From Pseudomonas fluorescens (GTDB lineage Bacteria > Pseudomonadota > Gammaproteobacteria > Pseudomonadales > Pseudomonadaceae), in the NCBI RefSeq assembly GCF_902497775.2, contig NZ_OZ024668.1, positions 3,456,326 to 3,520,325 on the forward strand: a stretch of DNA of 64,000 nt, in the 5' to 3' direction. Position 1 is the stretch's first letter, and the number at the start of each line of letters is the position of its first letter. Shown here piece by piece: positions 35,736-49,265 of the stretch. The notes beneath the pieces were generated by a model, which made no database searches, had not been told where the DNA came from, and saw only the letters and a program-made list of their open reading frames with translations. The translations under genes were made by a program, and so were the position numbers.

Positions 35736-36791
35736 TCAGGTACGCGGCGGCGCCACCGGCCCGCTGCGCGACCAGTCCAGCAACAGGCTGTAGGCCACCG
35801 CCAGCAAGGTCGGGCCGATGAACAAGCCGATAAAGCCGAAGGCCAGCAGGCCGCCAAACACCCCGAGCAGGACGATCACCAGCGGCAGGTTGCCGCCACG
35901 GCTGATCAGGTAGGGTTTGAGCACGTTGTCGACGCCGCTGATAATGAACGTCCCCCAGAGGCCGAGGAACACCGCCATGCCGTACTCGCCCTGCCAGGCT
36001 AGCCAGGCGGTGGCCGGCACCCAGGCCAGTGGCGGGCCCATGGGGATCAGGCTGAGCATGAAGGTGACGATACCCAGCACCAGCGCCCCCGGCACACCGG
36101 CAATCAGGAAGCCGATCAGGGCCAGTACCGCTTGCGCGGCGGCGGTGCCGATCACGCCGTTGACCACGCGCTGCACGGTACCGGCCACCAGGTCCAGGTA
36201 ATACTCGGCCCGCTCGCCGATCAAACGGTCCAGCAGGCGCAGGACGAAAGCCGCCAGGCGTGGCCCGTCACGGTAGAAGAAGAACACGAAGACAAGACTC
36301 AAGGTCAGCTCGAGAATTCCGCTGCCGATCTGTGCGCTGCGCGCCAGCAGCCAGTTGCCGACCTGGCCCAGGTACGGCTTGATGGTGGTGAGCAAGGCGG
36401 CGCCCTGTTGGTCAATGGTGTTCCACATGCCCACCAGACGCTCGCCCACGAACGGCACGCCGGCCAGCCAGCTCGGCGCATCGGGCAGGCCGTCGACCTG
36501 CACATCACGCACGAACGCGGTGGCGTCACGAATGTGATCGGCCAGGTTGAAGCCCAGCCATACCAGCGGCAATGCCACCAGGAGGATCCACAAGGTGGTC
36601 AGCAAGCCTGCCGCCAGGGTTTCGCGACCGCCTAGCAGGCGGGTCAACAGGCGCATCAGCGGCCAGCTGGCATAGGCCAGGATGGCCCCCCAGAGCAGCG
36701 CCGAGATAAACGGCGCCATCACCCACAGGCCGGCGCCAAGCAGCGCCAGCAGGATGATCTGCACCAGGAGGCGGTCATTATTGGGCATCAT
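35736..36791 (-). CDS. AI-2E/PerM family transporter
   Basis: A 351-residue polytopic membrane protein with about eight hydrophobic segments and the family pattern in the C-terminal half (VNGVIGTAAAQAVLALIGF, GPPLAWVPATAWL, IISGVDNVLKPYLISRGGNLPLVIVLLGVFGGLLAFGFIGLFIGP). The family includes TqsA and PerM, but substrates differ widely (signal export, Na+/H+ exchange). No autoinducer-2 role can be inferred. It lies 9 nt after the DUF4892 gene. Confidence 0.9.
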   Translation of the reverse strand: MMPNNDRLLVQIILLALLGAGLWVMAPFISALLWGAILAYASWPLMRLLTRLLGGRETLAAGLLTTLWILLVALPLVWLGFNLADHIRDATAFVRDVQVDGLPDAPSWLAGVPFVGERLVGMWNTIDQQGAALLTTIKPYLGQVGNWLLARSAQIGSGILELTLSLVFVFFFYRDGPRLAAFVLRLLDRLIGERAEYYLDLVAGTVQRVVNGVIGTAAAQAVLALIGFLIAGVPGALVLGIVTFMLSLIPMGPPLAWVPATAWLAWQGEYGMAVFLGLWGTFIISGVDNVLKPYLISRGGNLPLVIVLLGVFGGLLAFGFIGLFIGPTLLAVAYSLLLDWSRSGPVAPPRT

Positions 36792-41185: not shown

Positions 41186-42211
41186 TTAGTTGAAACCGCT
41201 GGTGGAGATAAAGTCGACATCGGTTTTCGGCTCGCCGCGCATCAGCAGCTCGATTACCTGGGTCAGGGTCCGGCCTTCGAACAGGATCGCGTGCAGCCCG
41301 GCGACCAGGGGCATGTACACCTGCACCTCCTGGGCTTTGACCTTGAGCACCTTGAGGGTGTTCACCCCTTCTGCCACTTCGCCCAGGCGGCTGACCGCCT
41401 CGTCCAGGCTCAGGCCCTGGCCCAGGGCGTGACCGACCTGGTAGTTGCGGCTCTTGGGCGAGGAGCAGGTGACGATCAGGTCACCGACCCCGGCCAGGCC
41501 CAGAAAGGTCATCGGGTTGGCGCCCTGGCTGACGGCAAAGCGGGTCATCTCGGCCAGGGCGCGAGTGATCAGCATGCTCTTGGTGTTTTCGCCCATGCCC
41601 AGCGCTACGGCCATGCCGGCGATGATCGCGTAGACGTTCTTCAACGCCCCGCCCAGCTCGACGCCAAAGCGGTCGCCGCTGGCGTAAACGCGAAAGGTGC
41701 GCCCGTGCAGTACGGCCTGGACCTGCTGGCAGAGGGCTTCGTCTTCGCTGGCGACCACGGTGGCGGTCAGGGCGTGTTCGGCCACTTCGCGGGCCAGGTT
41801 AGGCCCGGACAGCACGCCAATGCGCGCCTGGGGAGCGATTTCTTCGAGGATCTGGCTCATCAGCTTGAAGCTTTGCGCCTCGATGCCCTTGGTCAGGCTG
41901 ACCAGCATCTTGCCGCCCAGCAGTTGGGCATGGGGCGCCAGCACGCTGCGCAGGGCGCTGGAGGGCAAGGCGACGAAGATCAGCTCGCAGGCCTCGAGGG
42001 TCTCCAGCAAATCGTTGACCGGCTCGACCCCGGCATGCAGCTTGATGCCCTTGAGGTAGCGCGGGTTCTCGCGGTTGCTGCGCATGGCCTCGGCCTGCTC
42101 GGGGTCGCGCATCCATTGGCGCACCCGAACGCCGTTTTCCGCCAGCAGATTCGCCACGGCGGTGCCGAAACTCCCGCCTCCCAGAACTGCAACAGGCTGC
42201 TGTTCAGTCAT
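41186..42211 (-). CDS. gpsA: Glycerol-3-phosphate dehydrogenase [NAD(P)+]
   Basis: A 341-residue cytoplasmic enzyme making sn-glycerol-3-phosphate from dihydroxyacetone phosphate for phospholipid synthesis. The N-terminal Rossmann motif GGGSFGTA is at about residues 11-18. Other features are [54 protein letters not shown] with the catalytic Lys, and [18 protein letters not shown]. Start [11 protein letters not shown]; a 36-residue upstream extension was rejected. Confidence 0.97.
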
Positions 42212-42382
42212 ATCCAATCCGTTAAAACCAATTAAAGTGGCGACCTGCGCATTATACGGAGCGCCAGTGCCAGAGCCAGTGGCAGATGACCGAATCGGCC
42301 TTGGGAACAGTCGCGCCATGACTGGAAAATGCCCACCACTCGGTTAACATGCCCGACTTGAACCTGTTACCAAGGCCGTACT

Positions 42383-44494
42383 GTGTCTTTTGGCCCGACC
42401 TCCAAACGCCCTTTATTACTGCTGACTGCCCTGCTCAGCGGCCCCAGTGTGGCTGACGACCTGTTCGTCGACAGCCAGGCCCTGCCGCAAGTGCTCACCG
42501 CCACCCGCCTCAAGCAATCGCCAGCGGCGGTGCCGGGTAGCATGACCGTGCTCGACAGCGAGTTGATTCGCGCCAGCGGCGCCCGCGATATACCCGAGCT
42601 GCTGCGCCTGGTGCCGGGGATGATGATCGGCTACGGCGCCGGCAACCAGCCAACGGTCAACTACCACGGCAGCAACGTCAATGATGCCCGGCGCATGCAG
42701 GTGCTGATCGATGGCCGTTCGGTGTACCGCGCAGGCCTGGCTACAGTGGACTGGAGCGACATACCGCTGGCCATGGAAGACATCGAGCGCATCGAGGTGT
42801 TCCGCGGCCCCAACACCGTCAGTTACGGCGCCAATGCACTGATGGCGGTGGTCAACATCCTCACCCGCAGCCCGGCCGACAGCCACGGCACGCGCCTGAA
42901 GGTCACCCGTGGCCAGCGCGGCATCAATGACTGGTACGCAAGCCAAGGCCTGGGCTGGGACGGCGGTGACCTGCGCCTGTCGCTGTCGGGCATGCAGGAC
43001 GACGGTTTCGACCAGAACCACCTGGGCCAGGACTACCGCGACAGCCGCCGCCTCAACCGCCTGGGTCTGAGCGCCAGCCACACCCTGGCCAGCAACCAGA
43101 GCCTGGAATGGCAACTCTCGGCCAAGGAAGGCAGTGACCAGCGGCCCTATACCTATAAGCCGGTGTTCCCCTACATTACGGCCGCTGGCAACAACGCCGA
43201 CCTCAATGCCAAGGACTACGCAGGCTCCCTGCGCTGGAACATCGACTTCAACCCCGACCACAGCCTCTATGTACAGGGCTCGGCCCAGCACTGGGACCGT
43301 GAGCAAGTGTGGCGCGCCTGTGATGCGGCGCTGTCGTTCAGCCCGCAACTGACCCAGCTCTGGCGCCTGAACCCGAACTTTGCCGAGCAGGTGGCGCGCA
43401 ACATCACCTCGCCCCTGCCCGCCGGCAGCAGTGAGGAACTCGCCCTGGCCACGCAGGTTCAGCAGCAGTGGCGCAATGGCGGCGCGCAGCAGGTGTGCGG
43501 TGATATCGACCAGAGCACCCGGGAAACCCGCTACGACTTTGAAGTGCAGGACACCCTGAGCCTGTCCGACAGCCTGCGCCTGGTCAGCGGGGCCAACTAC
43601 CGCTACGACCGCGCCGATTCACAGACCTACTTCAATGGCAGCCTCGACGACAGTACCTGGCGCCTGTTCGGCCACCTGGAATGGCGCGCCGACGAGCACT
43701 GGATCCTCCAGGGCGGGGCCATGTACGAAGATGCCCGGCTGTCCGGCAACTCCCTGACCCCACGGGTGGCAGTCAACTACCTGATCACCCCGCGCCACGG
43801 CTTGCGCGCGGTGTACTCGGAAGCGGTGCGCTCACCGGACATGTTCGAAAACAACGTCAACTGGAGCTACCGGGTCAACAACCTGGTGCCCGGCGCCTTC
43901 GGCCAGCGCAACGCCGAATACTTCGTCAAGACCCGCGGCCCGGGCGATCTCGAACAGGAGCGCATGCGCTCGCGGGAACTGGGCTATAACGGTTACTTCG
44001 CCGATGCCGACCTGAGCGTCGACCTCAAGCTGTTCTACGACGAAATCACCGGCATGATCAGCGAACCTCTGCGCAACAACCAGTACATTGCCAGCAACAG
44101 CAACAAGGCCCGTTTCAGCGGCAGCGAAGCGCAGCTGGACTGGCGCCTGAGCCCGACCGACCGCCTGCGCCTGACCTACGCCTACGTCGATGCCTGGGCC
44201 AGCAACCCCGCCGACCGGCGCCTGAGCGCGCACAACAGTGGCTCGGCCGGCTGGTTGCGGGACTGGGGCGCCGGTTGGTCCAGCGCCCTCTTCTATTATG
44301 GTGATGACGCGCTCAACCAGTACCGCTTCGAACGCGTCGACTTGCGCGTGGCCAAGCGTCTGCACTGGAACCGTACCAACCTGGAACTGGCCGGCATGCT
44401 CCAGCAGCGCCTGGACGACGAACCCACGACCATCTACGACAACCGCTATGACAGCCGCCATGTAGTGTCTTTCAGTGCGGAGCTAGCGTTCTGA
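42383..44494 (+). CDS. TonB-dependent receptor of unknown substrate
   Basis: A 703-residue outer-membrane receptor from a GTG preceded by AAGG. Signal peptide (LLLLTALLSGPSVA), then a plug domain (about residues 35-160: VLTATRLKQSPAAVPGSMTVLDSELI, RIEVFRGPNTVSYGANALMAVVNI) and a barrel ending in Phe (SFSAELAF). There is no N-terminal signalling domain. Two cysteines (WRACDAA and QQVCGDI) may form an extracellular disulfide. It overlaps by 1 nt with a binding-protein gene that overlaps a hybrid kinase gene. I see no Fur-like box upstream. Substrate unknown. Confidence 0.9.
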   Translation: MSFGPTSKRPLLLLTALLSGPSVADDLFVDSQALPQVLTATRLKQSPAAVPGSMTVLDSELIRASGARDIPELLRLVPGMMIGYGAGNQPTVNYHGSNVNDARRMQVLIDGRSVYRAGLATVDWSDIPLAMEDIERIEVFRGPNTVSYGANALMAVVNILTRSPADSHGTRLKVTRGQRGINDWYASQGLGWDGGDLRLSLSGMQDDGFDQNHLGQDYRDSRRLNRLGLSASHTLASNQSLEWQLSAKEGSDQRPYTYKPVFPYITAAGNNADLNAKDYAGSLRWNIDFNPDHSLYVQGSAQHWDREQVWRACDAALSFSPQLTQLWRLNPNFAEQVARNITSPLPAGSSEELALATQVQQQWRNGGAQQVCGDIDQSTRETRYDFEVQDTLSLSDSLRLVSGANYRYDRADSQTYFNGSLDDSTWRLFGHLEWRADEHWILQGGAMYEDARLSGNSLTPRVAVNYLITPRHGLRAVYSEAVRSPDMFENNVNWSYRVNNLVPGAFGQRNAEYFVKTRGPGDLEQERMRSRELGYNGYFADADLSVDLKLFYDEITGMISEPLRNNQYIASNSNKARFSGSEAQLDWRLSPTDRLRLTYAYVDAWASNPADRRLSAHNSGSAGWLRDWGAGWSSALFYYGDDALNQYRFERVDLRVAKRLHWNRTNLELAGMLQQRLDDEPTTIYDNRYDSRHVVSFSAELAF

Positions 44495-45387
44495 TGCGCC
44501 GCCTGCGGCACTGGCTGCTGCTGGCCTGCCTGTGGCCCCTGGGGGGCCTGTCGGCCAGTGAGATCCTGCTCACCGCCAGCCTGGACAACCCCGGCGTGCG
44601 CAGCTTCGTTGAAGCCCTGCGCGAGCGCCGCCCGGCCGACCAGGTGCATTTCGTGCCGGTGGCCGAACTGCCGCGACCGAGCCAGATAAAAGCCGCCACG
44701 CGCCTGATCCTGCTCGATGGCGCCGGCCTCGAGTGGCGCCTGAGCGAAACCGCAGGACCTCCGGCCCTGGCCCTGCGTGTCAGCCGGGTCCAGGCCCAGC
44801 AGCGCCTGGGCAGCCTGCGCCCGGCTTATCTGAGCCTGCTGTGGAGCGACCCACCCCTGGCCCGCCAGCTGCGCCTGACCCGCTACCTGTTGCCACAGGC
44901 CAAGCGCGTGGGCGTACTGTATGCCGAACACAGCCAGTTCCTTCTCGACGAACTGCGCAAGGCGGCGCGCCCGATGGGCCTGGAAATCATTGCCCAAGCC
45001 TGGCCCGACCTGCGTGACAGCCGCCCACTGCAAACTCTTCTGCAAAACAGCGATGTACTGCTGGGCATCGACGATCCACAGTTGTACAACTCCAAGACGG
45101 CGAAGAACGTTTTGCTCAGCAGCTATGGCCGGCAGATGGCGCTGATCGGGCCCAATGCCGGTTTCGTCAAGGCCGGTGCCCTGGCCAGCACCCTGAGCGA
45201 TCAGGATGACTGGCTGGCAGTGCTCGACAGGCTGCTCAACCAGGCTCCCAATCGCTGGCCACGTACGCTCTACCCGGATCACTTCAGCGTGCTCGGCAAC
45301 CAGCAGGTGGCCCGAGCCCTGGGTATCGAAGCGATTGACCCGTCCGCCGCCGCCCTGGCTCTGGCCGAAGGAGAAAGCACACCATGA
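44494..45387 (+). CDS. Periplasmic binding-protein-like component (ABC-type, orphan)
   Basis: A 297-residue exported protein (signal [17 protein letters not shown]). The fold resembles the ABC_sub_bind family of periplasmic proteins ([69 protein letters not shown]). No permease or ATPase is nearby. Its start shares a base with the receptor stop, and its stop overlaps the kinase start by ATGA, so the three proteins are co-produced. The likely role is presenting a ligand to the kinase sensor domain; this is inference. Confidence 0.82.
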
Positions 45388-47312
45388 GACGGCGCCTGAG
45401 CTGGGACATCCATACCCGTACGCAGATCATCAGCCTCGGCCCGGCCCTGTTGCTGACCCTGCTGCTGATCAGCTTCTTTACCTTCGTGCGCATCCAGGAC
45501 CTGCGCCAGGAACTCAACCACACTGGCCAGTTGATCGCCAATCAGCTGGCCCCGGCCTCCGAGTACGGCGTGATCGCCGGCAACAACGAAGTGCTCGAAA
45601 GTTTGATGCGCGCCACCTTGAGCATCCCCCACGTGCGCTTTCTCGAGGTGCAGGACAGCAGCAACCATATCCTCGTGTACGTCGAGCAACCGGACGAAAG
45701 CAACAACCGCGCGCAGCAGGTCGAAGTGTTCCAGGCCCCGATCCGCCTGCAGCAGATCCGCCTGGACAACGACTTCTTGCACAGCAATGCGCCGACCAGA
45801 AACATCGGCGACGACTACCTGGGACGGGTGATCGTCGGCATGTCGGACGACGCCTTCAGCGAGCGTCAGCAGGAAATCGTGGTCAAGGCCGGGATCCTCG
45901 CCCTGTTCGCCCTGCTGTTCACCTTCATCCTCGCCCGGCGCCTGGCGCTGAGCCTGGCCAAGCCGATCAGCGACATGGGCCATGCGGTCAGGGCTATCCA
46001 GCAAGGCGAGTTCAATGCGCCATTGCCGGTGGTCGATGACAGCGAACTGGGACACCTGGCCCGGCACATCAACAACCTGGCCAACGCCCTGGGCAAGGCC
46101 AGCCACGAACAGCAGCAGGCCATGTCGCAGCTGATTCAGGCCCGCGAAGAAGCCGAACAGGCGAACAAGGCCAAGTCCGACTTCCTGGCGATGATGAGCC
46201 ACGAATTGCGCACGCCAATGAACGGCGTCATGGGCATGCTGCAACTTCTGGAAACAACCTCGCTCAATGAAGAGCAGGCCGAATACACCGCCGTGGCCAG
46301 TGAATCGACCGGACACCTGCTCAAGGTCATCAACGATATCCTCGATTTCTCGCGCATCGAGCGCACCAACCTCGAGCTTGAGCATATCGACTTCAACCTC
46401 GGCGAGCTGATCGGCAGCAGCGTGCAGTCGTTCCAGCACCTGGCCCAGCAACGCGAGCTGGACCTGCAACTGCGCCTGCCGCCGGGCATGGAACAGCTGC
46501 AGGTGGTGGGCGACCCGACCCGCATCCGCCAGGTCCTGCTCAACCTGATCGGCAACGCCCTGAAGTTCACCGAGCGCGGCAGCGTGCACATCGAACCGCG
46601 CTGGCAGGTGCTCGACCGCCAGTTGCTCTGGTTCACCTGCGCGGTGCGCGACACCGGTATCGGCATCGACAGCACACGCCTGGAGATGATGTTCGTCGCC
46701 TTCCAGCAGGCCGACAGCTCGATTTCCCGCCGTTATGGCGGCACGGGCCTGGGCCTGTCGATCGCCCGTACCCTGGCCGAACGGATGGGCGGTACCCTGC
46801 GCGGCGAAAGCCGTGAGGGCATCGGCTCGATCTTCACCCTGGAGATGCCCCTGGCCTTGTCTACGGCGCAAACGCCGCGCCTGCCCAGCGGCCTGACCCG
46901 CCCCGAAGACGACGGCCAGGGCCGGCGCATACTGCTGGTCGAAGACAACCCGGTGAACCAGACGGTAATCGAAGCCATGCTGCGCAGCCTGGGTTTTGAG
47001 GTGTGCGTCGCCGTTGATGGCGCCCAGGCCGTGGCGCAAGCCGGGCGCCAGCGCTTTGCCGCAGCGCTGATGGATTGCCGCCTGCCGATCATCGACGGTT
47101 ACGAGGCCACCCGGCGTATTCGCCTGCTACCGCAGGCGGCGGCCATGCCGATCATCGCCCTGACCGCCAATGCCTTGCAGGGCGATCGCGAGCGCTGCCT
47201 GAAGGCGGGCATGAACGACTACCTGGCCAAGCCGTTCAAACGCACTGATCTGCAGCAAATTCTGCAACGCTGGCTGCCCGGTCAGACAGCTGCGACTGGC
47301 GATAAATGCTAA
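45384..47312 (+). CDS. Hybrid sensor histidine kinase with periplasmic sensor and receiver
   Basis: A 642-residue hybrid kinase. First membrane segment at about residues 16-36, a periplasmic sensor (37-166, CHASE8-like), second segment at about 167-190, then HAMP. The dimerisation/phosphoacceptor domain has His273 in MSHELRTP, and the catalytic domain has N-box [18 protein letters not shown] and GTGLGLSIA. The C-terminal receiver (about 513-635) has Glu520/Asp521, Asp564 in MDCRLP and Lys617. The P. aeruginosa kinase next to fabA (PA1611) is known to bind RetS and affect virulence switching; this gene has the same position. Output here is unknown. Confidence 0.93.
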
Positions 47313-47517: not shown

Positions 47518-48033
47518 ATGACCAAACAAAACGCCTTTACTCGGGAAGACCTGCTGCGCTGCAGTCGCGGTGAGCTGTTCGGCCCAGGTAACGCGCAACT
47601 GCCCGCCCCGAACATGCTGATGGTGGATCGCATCGCCCATATCAGCGAAGAGGGTGGCAAGTACGGCAAAGGTGAATTGGTCGCCGAGCTGGATATCACC
47701 CCGGACCTGTGGTTCTTCGCCTGCCACTTCGAAGGTGATCCGGTGATGCCGGGCTGCCTGGGCCTGGACGCCATGTGGCAACTGGTCGGCTTCTTCCTCG
47801 GCTGGCAAGGCCTTCCAGGCCGCGGCCGTGCCCTGGGTTCGGGCGAAGTGAAATTCTTCGGCCAAGTCCTGCCGACCGCCAAGAAAGTCACCTATAACAT
47901 TCATATCAAGCGCGTCCTCAAAGGCAAGCTGAACATGGCCATCGCCGATGGTTCGGTCAGCGTCGACGGTCGCGAGATCTACACCGCCGAAGGCCTCCGG
48001 GTCGGCGTATTCACCTCCACTGACAACTTCTAA
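47518..48033 (+). CDS. fabA: 3-hydroxydecanoyl-ACP dehydratase/isomerase FabA
   Basis: A 171-residue cytoplasmic dimeric hotdog enzyme that introduces the cis double bond of unsaturated fatty acids. Catalytic His70 ([14 protein letters not shown]) and Asp84 (GLDAMWQ) are present. Length is standard. It forms an operon with fabB (11-nt gap), the anaerobic unsaturated fatty-acid pathway arrangement of pseudomonads. Confidence 0.99.
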
Positions 48034-48044
48034 GGGTTATCCGC

Positions 48045-49265
48045 ATGCGCCGCGTCGTTATCACTGGTCTGGGCATCGTTTCGTGCCTGGGCAATGACAA
48101 AGAGACCGTCTCCGCCAACCTGCGTGCAAGCCGCCCTGGCATCCGATTCAACCCGGAATATGCCGAAATGGGTCTGCGTAGCCAGGTTTCCGGCTCCATC
48201 GACCTCAACCTCGAAGAACTGATCGACCGTAAAATCTACCGTTTCGTTGGTCACGCCGCAGCCTACGCCTACCTGGCAATGGCTGACGCGATCAAGGACT
48301 CGGGCCTGACCGAAGAGCAGGTCTCCAACCCGCGTACCGGCCTGATCGCAGGCAGCGGCGGCGCCTCGACCCTGAACCAGATGGAAGCGCTGGACATCCT
48401 GCGCGAGAAAGGCGTCAAGCGCGTTGGCCCGTACCGTGTCACCCGGACCATGAGCAGCACCGTTTCGGCGTGCCTGGCCACCCCGTTCAAGATCAAGGGC
48501 CTGAACTACTCCATCGCTTCGGCCTGCGCCACCAGTGCTCACTGCATCGGTACCGCGATGGAACAGATCCAGATGGGCAAGCAGGACATCGTCTTCGCCG
48601 GTGGCGGTGAAGAAGAGCACTGGAGCCAGTCGTTCCTGTTCGACGCCATGGGCGCCCTGTCCAGCAAGCGCAACGACACCCCGGAAAAAGCCTCCCGCGC
48701 CTATGACGCCGACCGTGATGGCTTCGTCATCGCCGGCGGTGGCGGTATGGTCGTGGTTGAAGAGCTGGAACACGCTCTGGCCCGCGGCGCCAAGATCTAC
48801 GCCGAAATCGTCGGCTACGGCGCTACTTCCGATGGCTACGACATGGTCGCGCCAAGCGGCGAAGGCGCCATCCGCTGCATGCAGATGGCCATGTCCACCG
48901 TCGACACCCCGATCGACTACCTGAACACCCACGGCACCTCGACCCCGGTTGGCGACGTTGCCGAAATGAAGGGCGTTCGCGAAGTGTTCGGCGACAAGGC
49001 GCCAGCCATCAGCTCGACCAAGAGCCTGTCCGGTCACTCCCTGGGCGCCGCTGGCGTTCACGAAGCGATCTACTGCATGCTGATGATGGAAGGCAACTTC
49101 ATTGCCGGCTCCGCCAACATCGATGAACTGGACCCGGAAGTAGCCGATCTGCCGGTACTGACCCAGTCCCAGGAAAACGCCAAGATCGATACCGTGATGA
49201 GCAACAGCTTCGGTTTCGGCGGCACCAACGCCACCCTGGTGCTCAAGCGCTGGGCAGGCAAGTAA
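48045..49265 (+). CDS. fabB: 3-oxoacyl-ACP synthase I FabB
   Basis: A 406-residue condensing enzyme that elongates cis-3-decenoyl-ACP. The catalytic triad is visible: Cys161 (SACATSAH), His296 (THGTST) and His331 (SGHSLGA), with the glycine-rich [15 protein letters not shown] near the C-terminus. Standard length; operon with fabA and a strong terminator after it. Confidence 0.99.

Follow-up and report, generated by a model that had tools for sequence, protein, structure and literature searches.

This analysis concerns three adjacent genes in a 64,000-nucleotide stretch of Pseudomonas fluorescens DNA (contig NZ_OZ024668.1, positions 3,456,326 to 3,520,325; hereafter the window), which encode a TonB-dependent receptor, a periplasmic substrate-binding protein and a hybrid histidine kinase, and which an original prediction had read as a single signalling system. 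The receptor gene (42383..44494, + strand, GTG start) specifies 703 residues and is the putative outer-membrane inlet of the trio; the PF04392-like binding protein (44494..45387, +) has 297 residues and no ATP-binding cassette (ABC) partner nearby, and the PA1611-type kinase (45384..47312, +) has 642. Receptor and binding protein overlap by 1 nucleotide at a TGATG stop/start (44492..44496, +), and binding protein and kinase by 4 nucleotides at a conserved ATGA stop/start (45384..45387, +). Both overlaps had been predicted, as had a receptor without a signalling domain, the absence of a permease or ATPase, and a kinase with two membrane segments, a periplasmic sensor and a receiver, and all of these features are borne out by the junction sequences, Pfam and hydropathy.

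In the receptor, Pfam detects a Plug domain from residue 49, with no signalling domain N-terminal to it, and a beta-barrel. Against a profile built from 29 trio receptors of the class, none of them from the family of the window's genome (Pseudomonadaceae), the window receptor reaches 551 bits and the next receptor of that genome 164, and the trio receptor is therefore a subfamily of its own; at E <= 1e-110, with three candidates per genome scored, it was found in 19 genomes of a 398-genome phylum sample, all of them from within the class or closer still. The binding protein matches PF04392 only weakly (23 bits, under the cut-off of 25.9), and a profile of 125 of its relatives matches the structures 3LKV, 6HNI and 3LFT, with substrate-binding-protein structures aligning over nearly the full length of the profile. 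As judged by eye it has a signal peptide and no lipobox, and its closest named counterparts among the matches listed are 93-95% identical (P. vranovensis, P. sp. SORT22, R32, P. donghuensis and P. wadenswilerensis). The kinase consists of sCache_4, HAMP, HisKA (H273), HATPase_c and Response_reg (D564) domains with no histidine phosphotransfer (Hpt) domain detected by Pfam, and hydropathy points to two likely membrane segments, with hydrophobic windows that begin near residues 15 and 165, on either side of residues ~37-163; the periplasmic sensor is placed at residues 37-166 (45492..45881, +), and a 13-residue stretch is marked in it at residues 55-67. Among 16 neighbouring open reading frames (ORFs) scanned with Pfam between 35.7 and 54.5 kb, which include gpsA, fabA, fabB and others, there is no ABC ATPase or permease, the sole transporter being an AI-2E-family protein (35736-36791), and neither they nor the trio genes include a response regulator, DNA-binding ones among them, or a sigma factor.

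The kinase shares with PA1611 of P. aeruginosa the position between gpsA and fabA, the domain order, the lack of an Hpt domain and a receiver that is 71.3% identical to PA1611REC (7C1J) over 122 residues, and the link to PA1611 drawn in the original prediction thus stands. P. aeruginosa itself was not found among the 25 genomes compared from its genus code, and the kinase there that is nearest to PA1611REC (96% in the receiver) belongs to a genome, G126, with the whole trio. The idea of PA1611 as an orphan kinase with lost partners was rejected, given the trio in that nearest genome and the PA1612-PA1611 operon described in the available part of one study (PMC3462791), which by reverse-transcription PCR and fusions also places PAO1 fabA partly on the PA1612-PA1611 transcript and reports fabA expression to be unchanged by PA1611 deletion (PMC3462791). 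From the gene order and the cited papers, PA1613 would be the receptor and PA1612 the binding protein; in the accessible text of two further studies, PA1613 is listed as a pathoadaptive gene of cystic fibrosis lineages (PMC4199492) and figures in work on iron-acquisition proteins (PMC9864456). Phosphotransfer from PA1611 to HptB has been reported (PMC7467158), as has a PA1611-RetS interaction that is independent of the PA1611 phosphorelay residues (PMC4866733). While the PA1612-PA1611 operon shares with the window trio the place beside fabA, a receiver of 71% identity, the missing Hpt and probably an HptB partner, the available portions of these papers (PMC3462791, PMC7467158, PMC4866733) describe PA1611 as a kinase acting against RetS and feeding into HptB, and do not treat the receptor and binding protein as its input. 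An HptB homologue of 115 residues is present in the window's genome, where it matches 7C1I, the HptB structure (PMC7467158), with an E value of 1.2e-29 and adjoins a SpoIIE/HATPase protein like HsbR.

Across 198 genomes of the family, the receptor is found in 89 (E <= 1e-60), the binding protein in 94, of which four are weak matches only (E about 1e-4) and leave 90, and the PA1611-type kinase in 137 (136 fetched plus the window's own, tallied by hand at E <= 4.7e-35, with GacS-like matches beginning at 6.7e-23). The sets are nested, all 89 receptor genomes lying within the 90 binding-protein genomes and these within the 137 kinase genomes. Of the 136 other kinase loci, 86 qualify as trios by rule and 47 lack both partners; the remaining three are one with binding protein and kinase without receptor (L260), one ended by a contig end (L268), and L263 in G073, where the receptor gene carries one internal TAA and the trio is otherwise intact. 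With L268 set aside, 47 of the 48 loci that miss a partner miss both, and the survey of relatives that the original prediction had proposed as a check shows nested presence and joint absence. A further 49 named loci are also trios and, having been found through the binding protein, are uninformative on presence. The gene order gpsA-...-fabA is common to the family loci displayed, with gpsA immediately before the kinase in the solo ones. Over 136 trio loci (family, named genomes and window, with starts set by a script rule), the 4-nucleotide overlap between binding protein and kinase occurs in 113 (102 ATGA, 10 GTGA, 1 TTGA) and the 1-nucleotide overlap between receptor and binding protein in 23.

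On a FastTree tree of 197 kinases, for which 11 class-level kinases served as the outgroup, the solo rows fall into 7 groups and 7 changes are needed to explain the trio/solo label; the changes would be losses if read from the trio outgroups, the count itself being directionless. Judged by these comparisons, the three genes are one evolutionary unit. Independent distribution, which the original prediction had named as speaking against a single system, is not seen for the receptor and binding protein, which occur only with the kinase in the 198 genomes, and is seen for the kinase, which stands alone in 47 of 137. The dependence is therefore one-way, of receptor and binding protein on kinase.

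Several Pseudomonas-type loci show peculiarities of their own. In g18 loci (L243, L245-L247, L253-L257, L262, L263 and L266) the PA1611-type kinases are about 500 residues long with no receiver match, and in g5 loci such as L231, L239, L248 and L252 a gene for an AMP-binding protein, acyl-CoA synthetase-like by eye, lies between the kinase and fabA. The latter was considered as an output partner and discarded, as it reads, by eye, as an AMP-binding acyl-CoA synthetase in 8 loci. The record of L077 (NZ_VWXI01000011.1, labelled 'Pantoea sp. Cy-639') has the Pseudomonas locus with 77% binding-protein identity and is possibly a misnamed Pseudomonas.

Beyond what had been predicted, the arrangement extends through the class. 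The binding protein is matched at E <= 1e-12 in 51 of 321 class genomes, among them that of the window, and the 51 places in the other 50 together with L108, from an unplaced metagenome-assembled genome, make up 52 loci. In 39 of these (36 by rule; L283, L285 and L301 by inspection) a receptor gene is followed by the genes for the binding protein and a signalling protein, and the binding protein and signalling gene overlap by 4 nucleotides in 19 of 34. At L306 the kinase precedes the binding protein, L321 is ended by a contig end, and L313 has receptor and binding protein without a kinase, likewise at a contig end. Pfam analysis of 46 downstream neighbours plus the window kinase (L306, L307, L313, L318, L319 and L321 left out) yields HAMP in 45 of the 47 members, HisKA in 43, sCache_4 in 41, a receiver in 38, Hpt in 32, and GGDEF and EAL in 2. 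The last two are 828-residue GGDEF-EAL proteins (L286, 4913-2427, - strand; L323, 5675-8161, + strand), which occupy the place of the kinase and carry a sensor homologous to that of the window kinase, so that the input is kept and the output swapped. An ABC-ATPase-like ORF was found in none of 51 class loci and in 1 of 136 family loci by a motif scan at the loci, unlinked transporters not being searched for. At L297 (2254-8405), receptor and binding protein come after a gene for a receiver protein, and sensor and HAMP are encoded on their own, as a 260-residue protein followed by a second kinase-like gene.

Within the Pseudomonadaceae, the sensor and the binding protein also co-diverge. From 132 loci with all six genes, 100 were kept, and 90 after dereplication, with g18 (no receiver) and loci with more than 35% gaps in a gene excluded and 4 g5 loci remaining. 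The distances of binding protein and sensor retain a partial correlation of 0.74 after removal of fabA, fabB and the kinase core (n = 90), compared with 0.22 for binding protein and core once fabA, fabB and sensor are removed, and 0.08 for binding protein and receiver once fabA, fabB, core and sensor are removed; the bootstrap difference between sensor and receiver is 0.63 (0.22-0.92). These values replace an earlier mirror-tree with poorly extracted gpsA and receiver-less kinases included, which gave 0.62 for the sensor and 0.35 for the receiver. In the full set the receptor-sensor correlation is still 0.45 after removal of the binding protein, whereas among g1 and named Pseudomonas loci it is -0.04 and the receptor-binding protein correlation is 0.63 with the sensor removed; over 37 class loci the binding protein and receptor correlate at 0.75. 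The sensor-to-core divergence ratio is 2.7, 3.2 and 3.4 in solo groups (3.1 for a union of two) and 0.9-2.5 in five trio groups, which, with so few independent groups, is only suggestive of faster sensor divergence in kinases without partners. The exact motif [ST]EYG is found in 7 of 29 class trio sensors and 1 of 15 solo ones and was dropped as a weak marker of partnered sensors. The widened form [STAC]E[YF][GA] occurs in 23 of 29 against 2 of 15 (absent from GacS, present in BarA), and, among family kinases, in 118 of 137 against 33 of 47; having been widened after the data were seen, it is therefore a lead only. A site-by-site comparison of trio and solo sensors gave one site that is trio-conserved and solo-lost, and one with the reverse pattern.

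The class loci further link the trio to the BarA/GacS kinases, a connection that, like the class-wide spread, goes beyond the original prediction. A profile of 26 class-level trio kinases retrieves GacS first from the window's genome (927 bits) and the trio kinase next (479 + 127 bits), and with GacS as the query, 31 of the 50 binding-protein-bearing class genomes have a GacS-type match at most 1.5 kb away on the same strand. Of 62 tabulated GacS-type matches of full length, 29 adjoin the binding protein, in a count that would miss binding proteins below E 1e-12. Divergent upstream genes point in the same direction: cysM-like and/or rlmD lie there in 27 of 52 class loci (cysM-like in 24, rlmD in 16, both in 13), and at L317 relA and rlmD are found upstream, as at E. 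coli barA, from which relA-rlmD diverges. The cysM-like protein of L289 is a PALP-family enzyme, the name cysM being given by eye; cysM, rlmD and relA are presumably also near gacS in Pseudomonas. No receptor or binding protein was found in the 13.5 kb around E. coli barA or within about 1.5 kb of gacS in the window's genome. A tree of 62 rows unites GacS, BarA and solo relatives with the binding-protein-bearing kinases of L293, L310 and L317 in a supported set (Shimodaira-Hasegawa-like approximate likelihood ratio test, 98), the PA1611 type forms a separate clade (100), and a single clade of all 17 solo rows, a group named after the tree was seen, is rejected by the approximately unbiased (AU) test (p 0.004).

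The window kinase shares the sCache_4-HAMP-HisKA-HATPase-receiver order with the BarA/GacS kinases, the type to which most trio kinases of the class belong, and the latter often stand at a barA-like locus. In contrast, the window kinase lacks the C-terminal Hpt, and the window trio lies at gpsA/fabA without divergent relA-rlmD(-cysM). As far as sequence comparison goes, BarA/GacS-type kinases thus commonly have receptor and binding protein next to them, at a barA-like locus as well, and the window trio is a relocated or parallel copy without Hpt that stands at fabA.

The findings are consistent with a model that we consider fairly probable, in which the three genes would form one sensory unit, giving sCache_4 kinases of the BarA/GacS superfamily an inlet that is fed through TonB and depends on the binding protein. 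As its family suggests, the TonB-energised receptor would bring a scarce molecule across the outer membrane, to be captured in the periplasm by the binding protein, for which no ABC partner is encoded nearby. Rather than engaging a transporter, the binding protein would then dock on the kinase's sCache_4 domain, a step suggested by the gene overlap, the joint absence, the output swap and the co-divergence. The liganded, or else the empty, complex might set the autophosphorylation of the kinase, from which phosphate would pass from His273 to Asp564 and on to a free-standing Hpt protein, which in Pseudomonas would be HptB; alternatively or in addition, the kinase may modulate RetS/GacS. The original notion of one system is partly supported overall, the comparisons backing the three genes as one evolutionary unit.

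Several observations count against this model. Receptor and binding protein are missing beside 47 of the 137 family kinases, and 33 of the 62 tabulated full-length GacS-type matches have no adjacent binding protein. Eight of the 52 class loci have binding protein and kinase with no receptor; in five of them (L289, L300, L304, L305 and L317) a cysM-like gene or rlmD abuts directly upstream, and in L311, L324 and L108 there are 0.8-2.1 kb of upstream sequence. At L307 (2510-7000) and L318 (3000-8343), which belong to family code f130, receptor and binding protein have no kinase and are followed by a TrmO-like gene and fabA-fabB, the pair thus being kept at fabA without its kinase. Five g10 genomes (G025, G061, G077, G085 and G093) carry a second full-length receptor elsewhere, 62-63% identical to that of the window, and no second strong binding-protein match. 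In the full mirror-tree set, the receptor-binding protein correlation falls to 0.05 once the sensor is removed, and over the 37 class loci the binding protein correlates with the sensor (0.37) no better than with the core (0.34). Finally, a single clade of the 10 solo rows in the supported set is accommodated by the data (AU p 0.51), and the orthology of the class trio kinases with BarA/GacS therefore rests mainly on synteny.

The same observations bear on other explanations of the trio. Receptors and binding proteins usually feed transporters, and the binding protein could serve an unlinked inner-membrane transporter, with the kinase doing no more than setting receptor and binding-protein expression, in the way that pfeA is controlled by PfeRS; a weak match to the tryptophan-binding protein TrpX, far below threshold (23.7 bits, cut-off 390), would fit such a transport role. 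However, no ABC-ATPase-like ORF is present in 135 of 136 family and all 51 class loci by the locus-bound motif scan, nor is there an ABC gene among the 16 window neighbours or a DNA-binding response regulator among them and the trio, the output can be a GGDEF-EAL protein, and no Fur box exceeds chance over 134 loci, all of which makes transport control an unlikely purpose of the kinase.

The overlap of the binding-protein gene with that of the kinase and its co-divergence with the sensor would also suit a regulator that needs no ligand and reports the state of the envelope or of TonB, in the manner in which YfiR regulates YfiN, and so would the PF04392 score under its cut-off and the 8 of 52 class loci that do without a receptor. 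Against this stand the dedicated receptor subfamily that travels with the binding protein, the joint absence of the two in 47 of the 48 family loci that miss either, and the substrate-binding-protein structures that match nearly the whole profile, and a ligand-independent role appears improbable. That the genes are unrelated in function and held together by their position upstream of fabA, or by hitch-hiking, is hardly credible: the family locus is indeed fixed between gpsA and fabA, and shared position alone could preserve the order, but 39 of 52 class loci have the same order, some at the barA-like locus and some elsewhere, the joint absence comes with 7 changes on the tree, and no binding protein without the kinase was found in the 198 family genomes.

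Compared with known systems, the proposed sensory unit combines familiar elements in a different manner. As in LuxPQ and TorTS, a binding-protein gene is linked to that of a hybrid kinase with a periplasmic sensor, and in both LuxP-LuxQ and TorT-TorS the binding protein acts on the periplasmic part of the kinase, as it would in the trio. These two units are not known to include an outer-membrane receptor and use other binding-protein families, whereas the sensor of the trio is an sCache_4 domain as in BarA/GacS-type kinases. FecA/FecR-type systems and PfeA-PfeRS likewise link a TonB-dependent receptor to signalling; the trio receptor differs in having no N-terminal signalling domain, and the trio with its 16 neighbours in having no response regulator or sigma factor. 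In YfiBNR, outer-membrane and periplasmic partners also act on an inner-membrane signalling protein, though YfiB is not a TonB receptor, YfiR is of another family and the output is a cyclase, and in this last respect the L286 and L323 trios do have GGDEF-EAL proteins. Unlike in an ABC importer, no permease or ATPase stands beside the binding protein at the locus, the rest of the genome not being searched.

The trio is flanked downstream, on the same strand, by fabA-fabB (47518..49265, +), a neighbour and not part of the sensor, and on the other side by the divergent gpsA (41186-42319, -). fabA-fabB are probably co-transcribed with the trio, as no terminator-like site is present on the + strand from the receptor through 49285, in agreement with the partial placement of PAO1 fabA on the PA1612-PA1611 transcript. 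Upstream of the receptor, the stretch 42310-42383 (ACTGGAAAA...GGTTAACATG) is kept in an alignment of 12 related Pseudomonas and is perhaps a promoter; it has no Fur box. Fur control of the trio was rejected, since the best upstream match to the Fur consensus averages 10.07 of 19 over 134 loci and 10.03 in shuffled sequence, and Fur sites thus give no pointer to iron. An apparent fusion of binding protein and kinase in L019 (a 1094-residue open frame) proved to be two separate, overlapping ORFs; the term fused, as applied to these genes, refers to overlapping frames, and beyond L019 no dedicated search for fusion proteins was made.

In many class members the partner of receptor and binding protein is a BarA/GacS-type kinase, which often occupies the barA position, and the trio therefore has the look of an ancient input module for this superfamily, retained by the PA1611 type and missing beside E. 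coli BarA and the GacS of the window's genome. A wider proposal, to which we give slightly less than even credence, is that the receptor and the orphan PF04392-like binding protein were the ancestral signal inlet of the whole superfamily (Gac/Rsm, BarA/UvrY), arranged as relA-rlmD-cysM / receptor - binding protein - BarA-type kinase as in the class, which the E. coli BarA and Pseudomonas GacS lines dropped and the PA1611-type kinases kept. In the open-access literature, subscription journals being largely not covered, no account of the trio as one system was found, as the original prediction had supposed, nor any mention of the receptor-binding protein pair at barA/gacS. The signal of GacS is called yet unknown in the accessible part of one paper (PMC5595915), and the trio, often standing where BarA/GacS lies, may be a signal inlet that has long been missing; were the ancestral proposal true, the Gac signal would be a molecule that requires TonB-dependent uptake. 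If the pair are the natural partners of the superfamily kinases, the search for the ligand could proceed by ordinary binding assays with a single small periplasmic protein, and the fact that the pair is repeatedly absent would amount to a natural experiment in rewiring a global lifestyle switch. The trio would then represent a signalling use of a substrate-binding protein served by an outer-membrane gate of its own, with no importer alongside.

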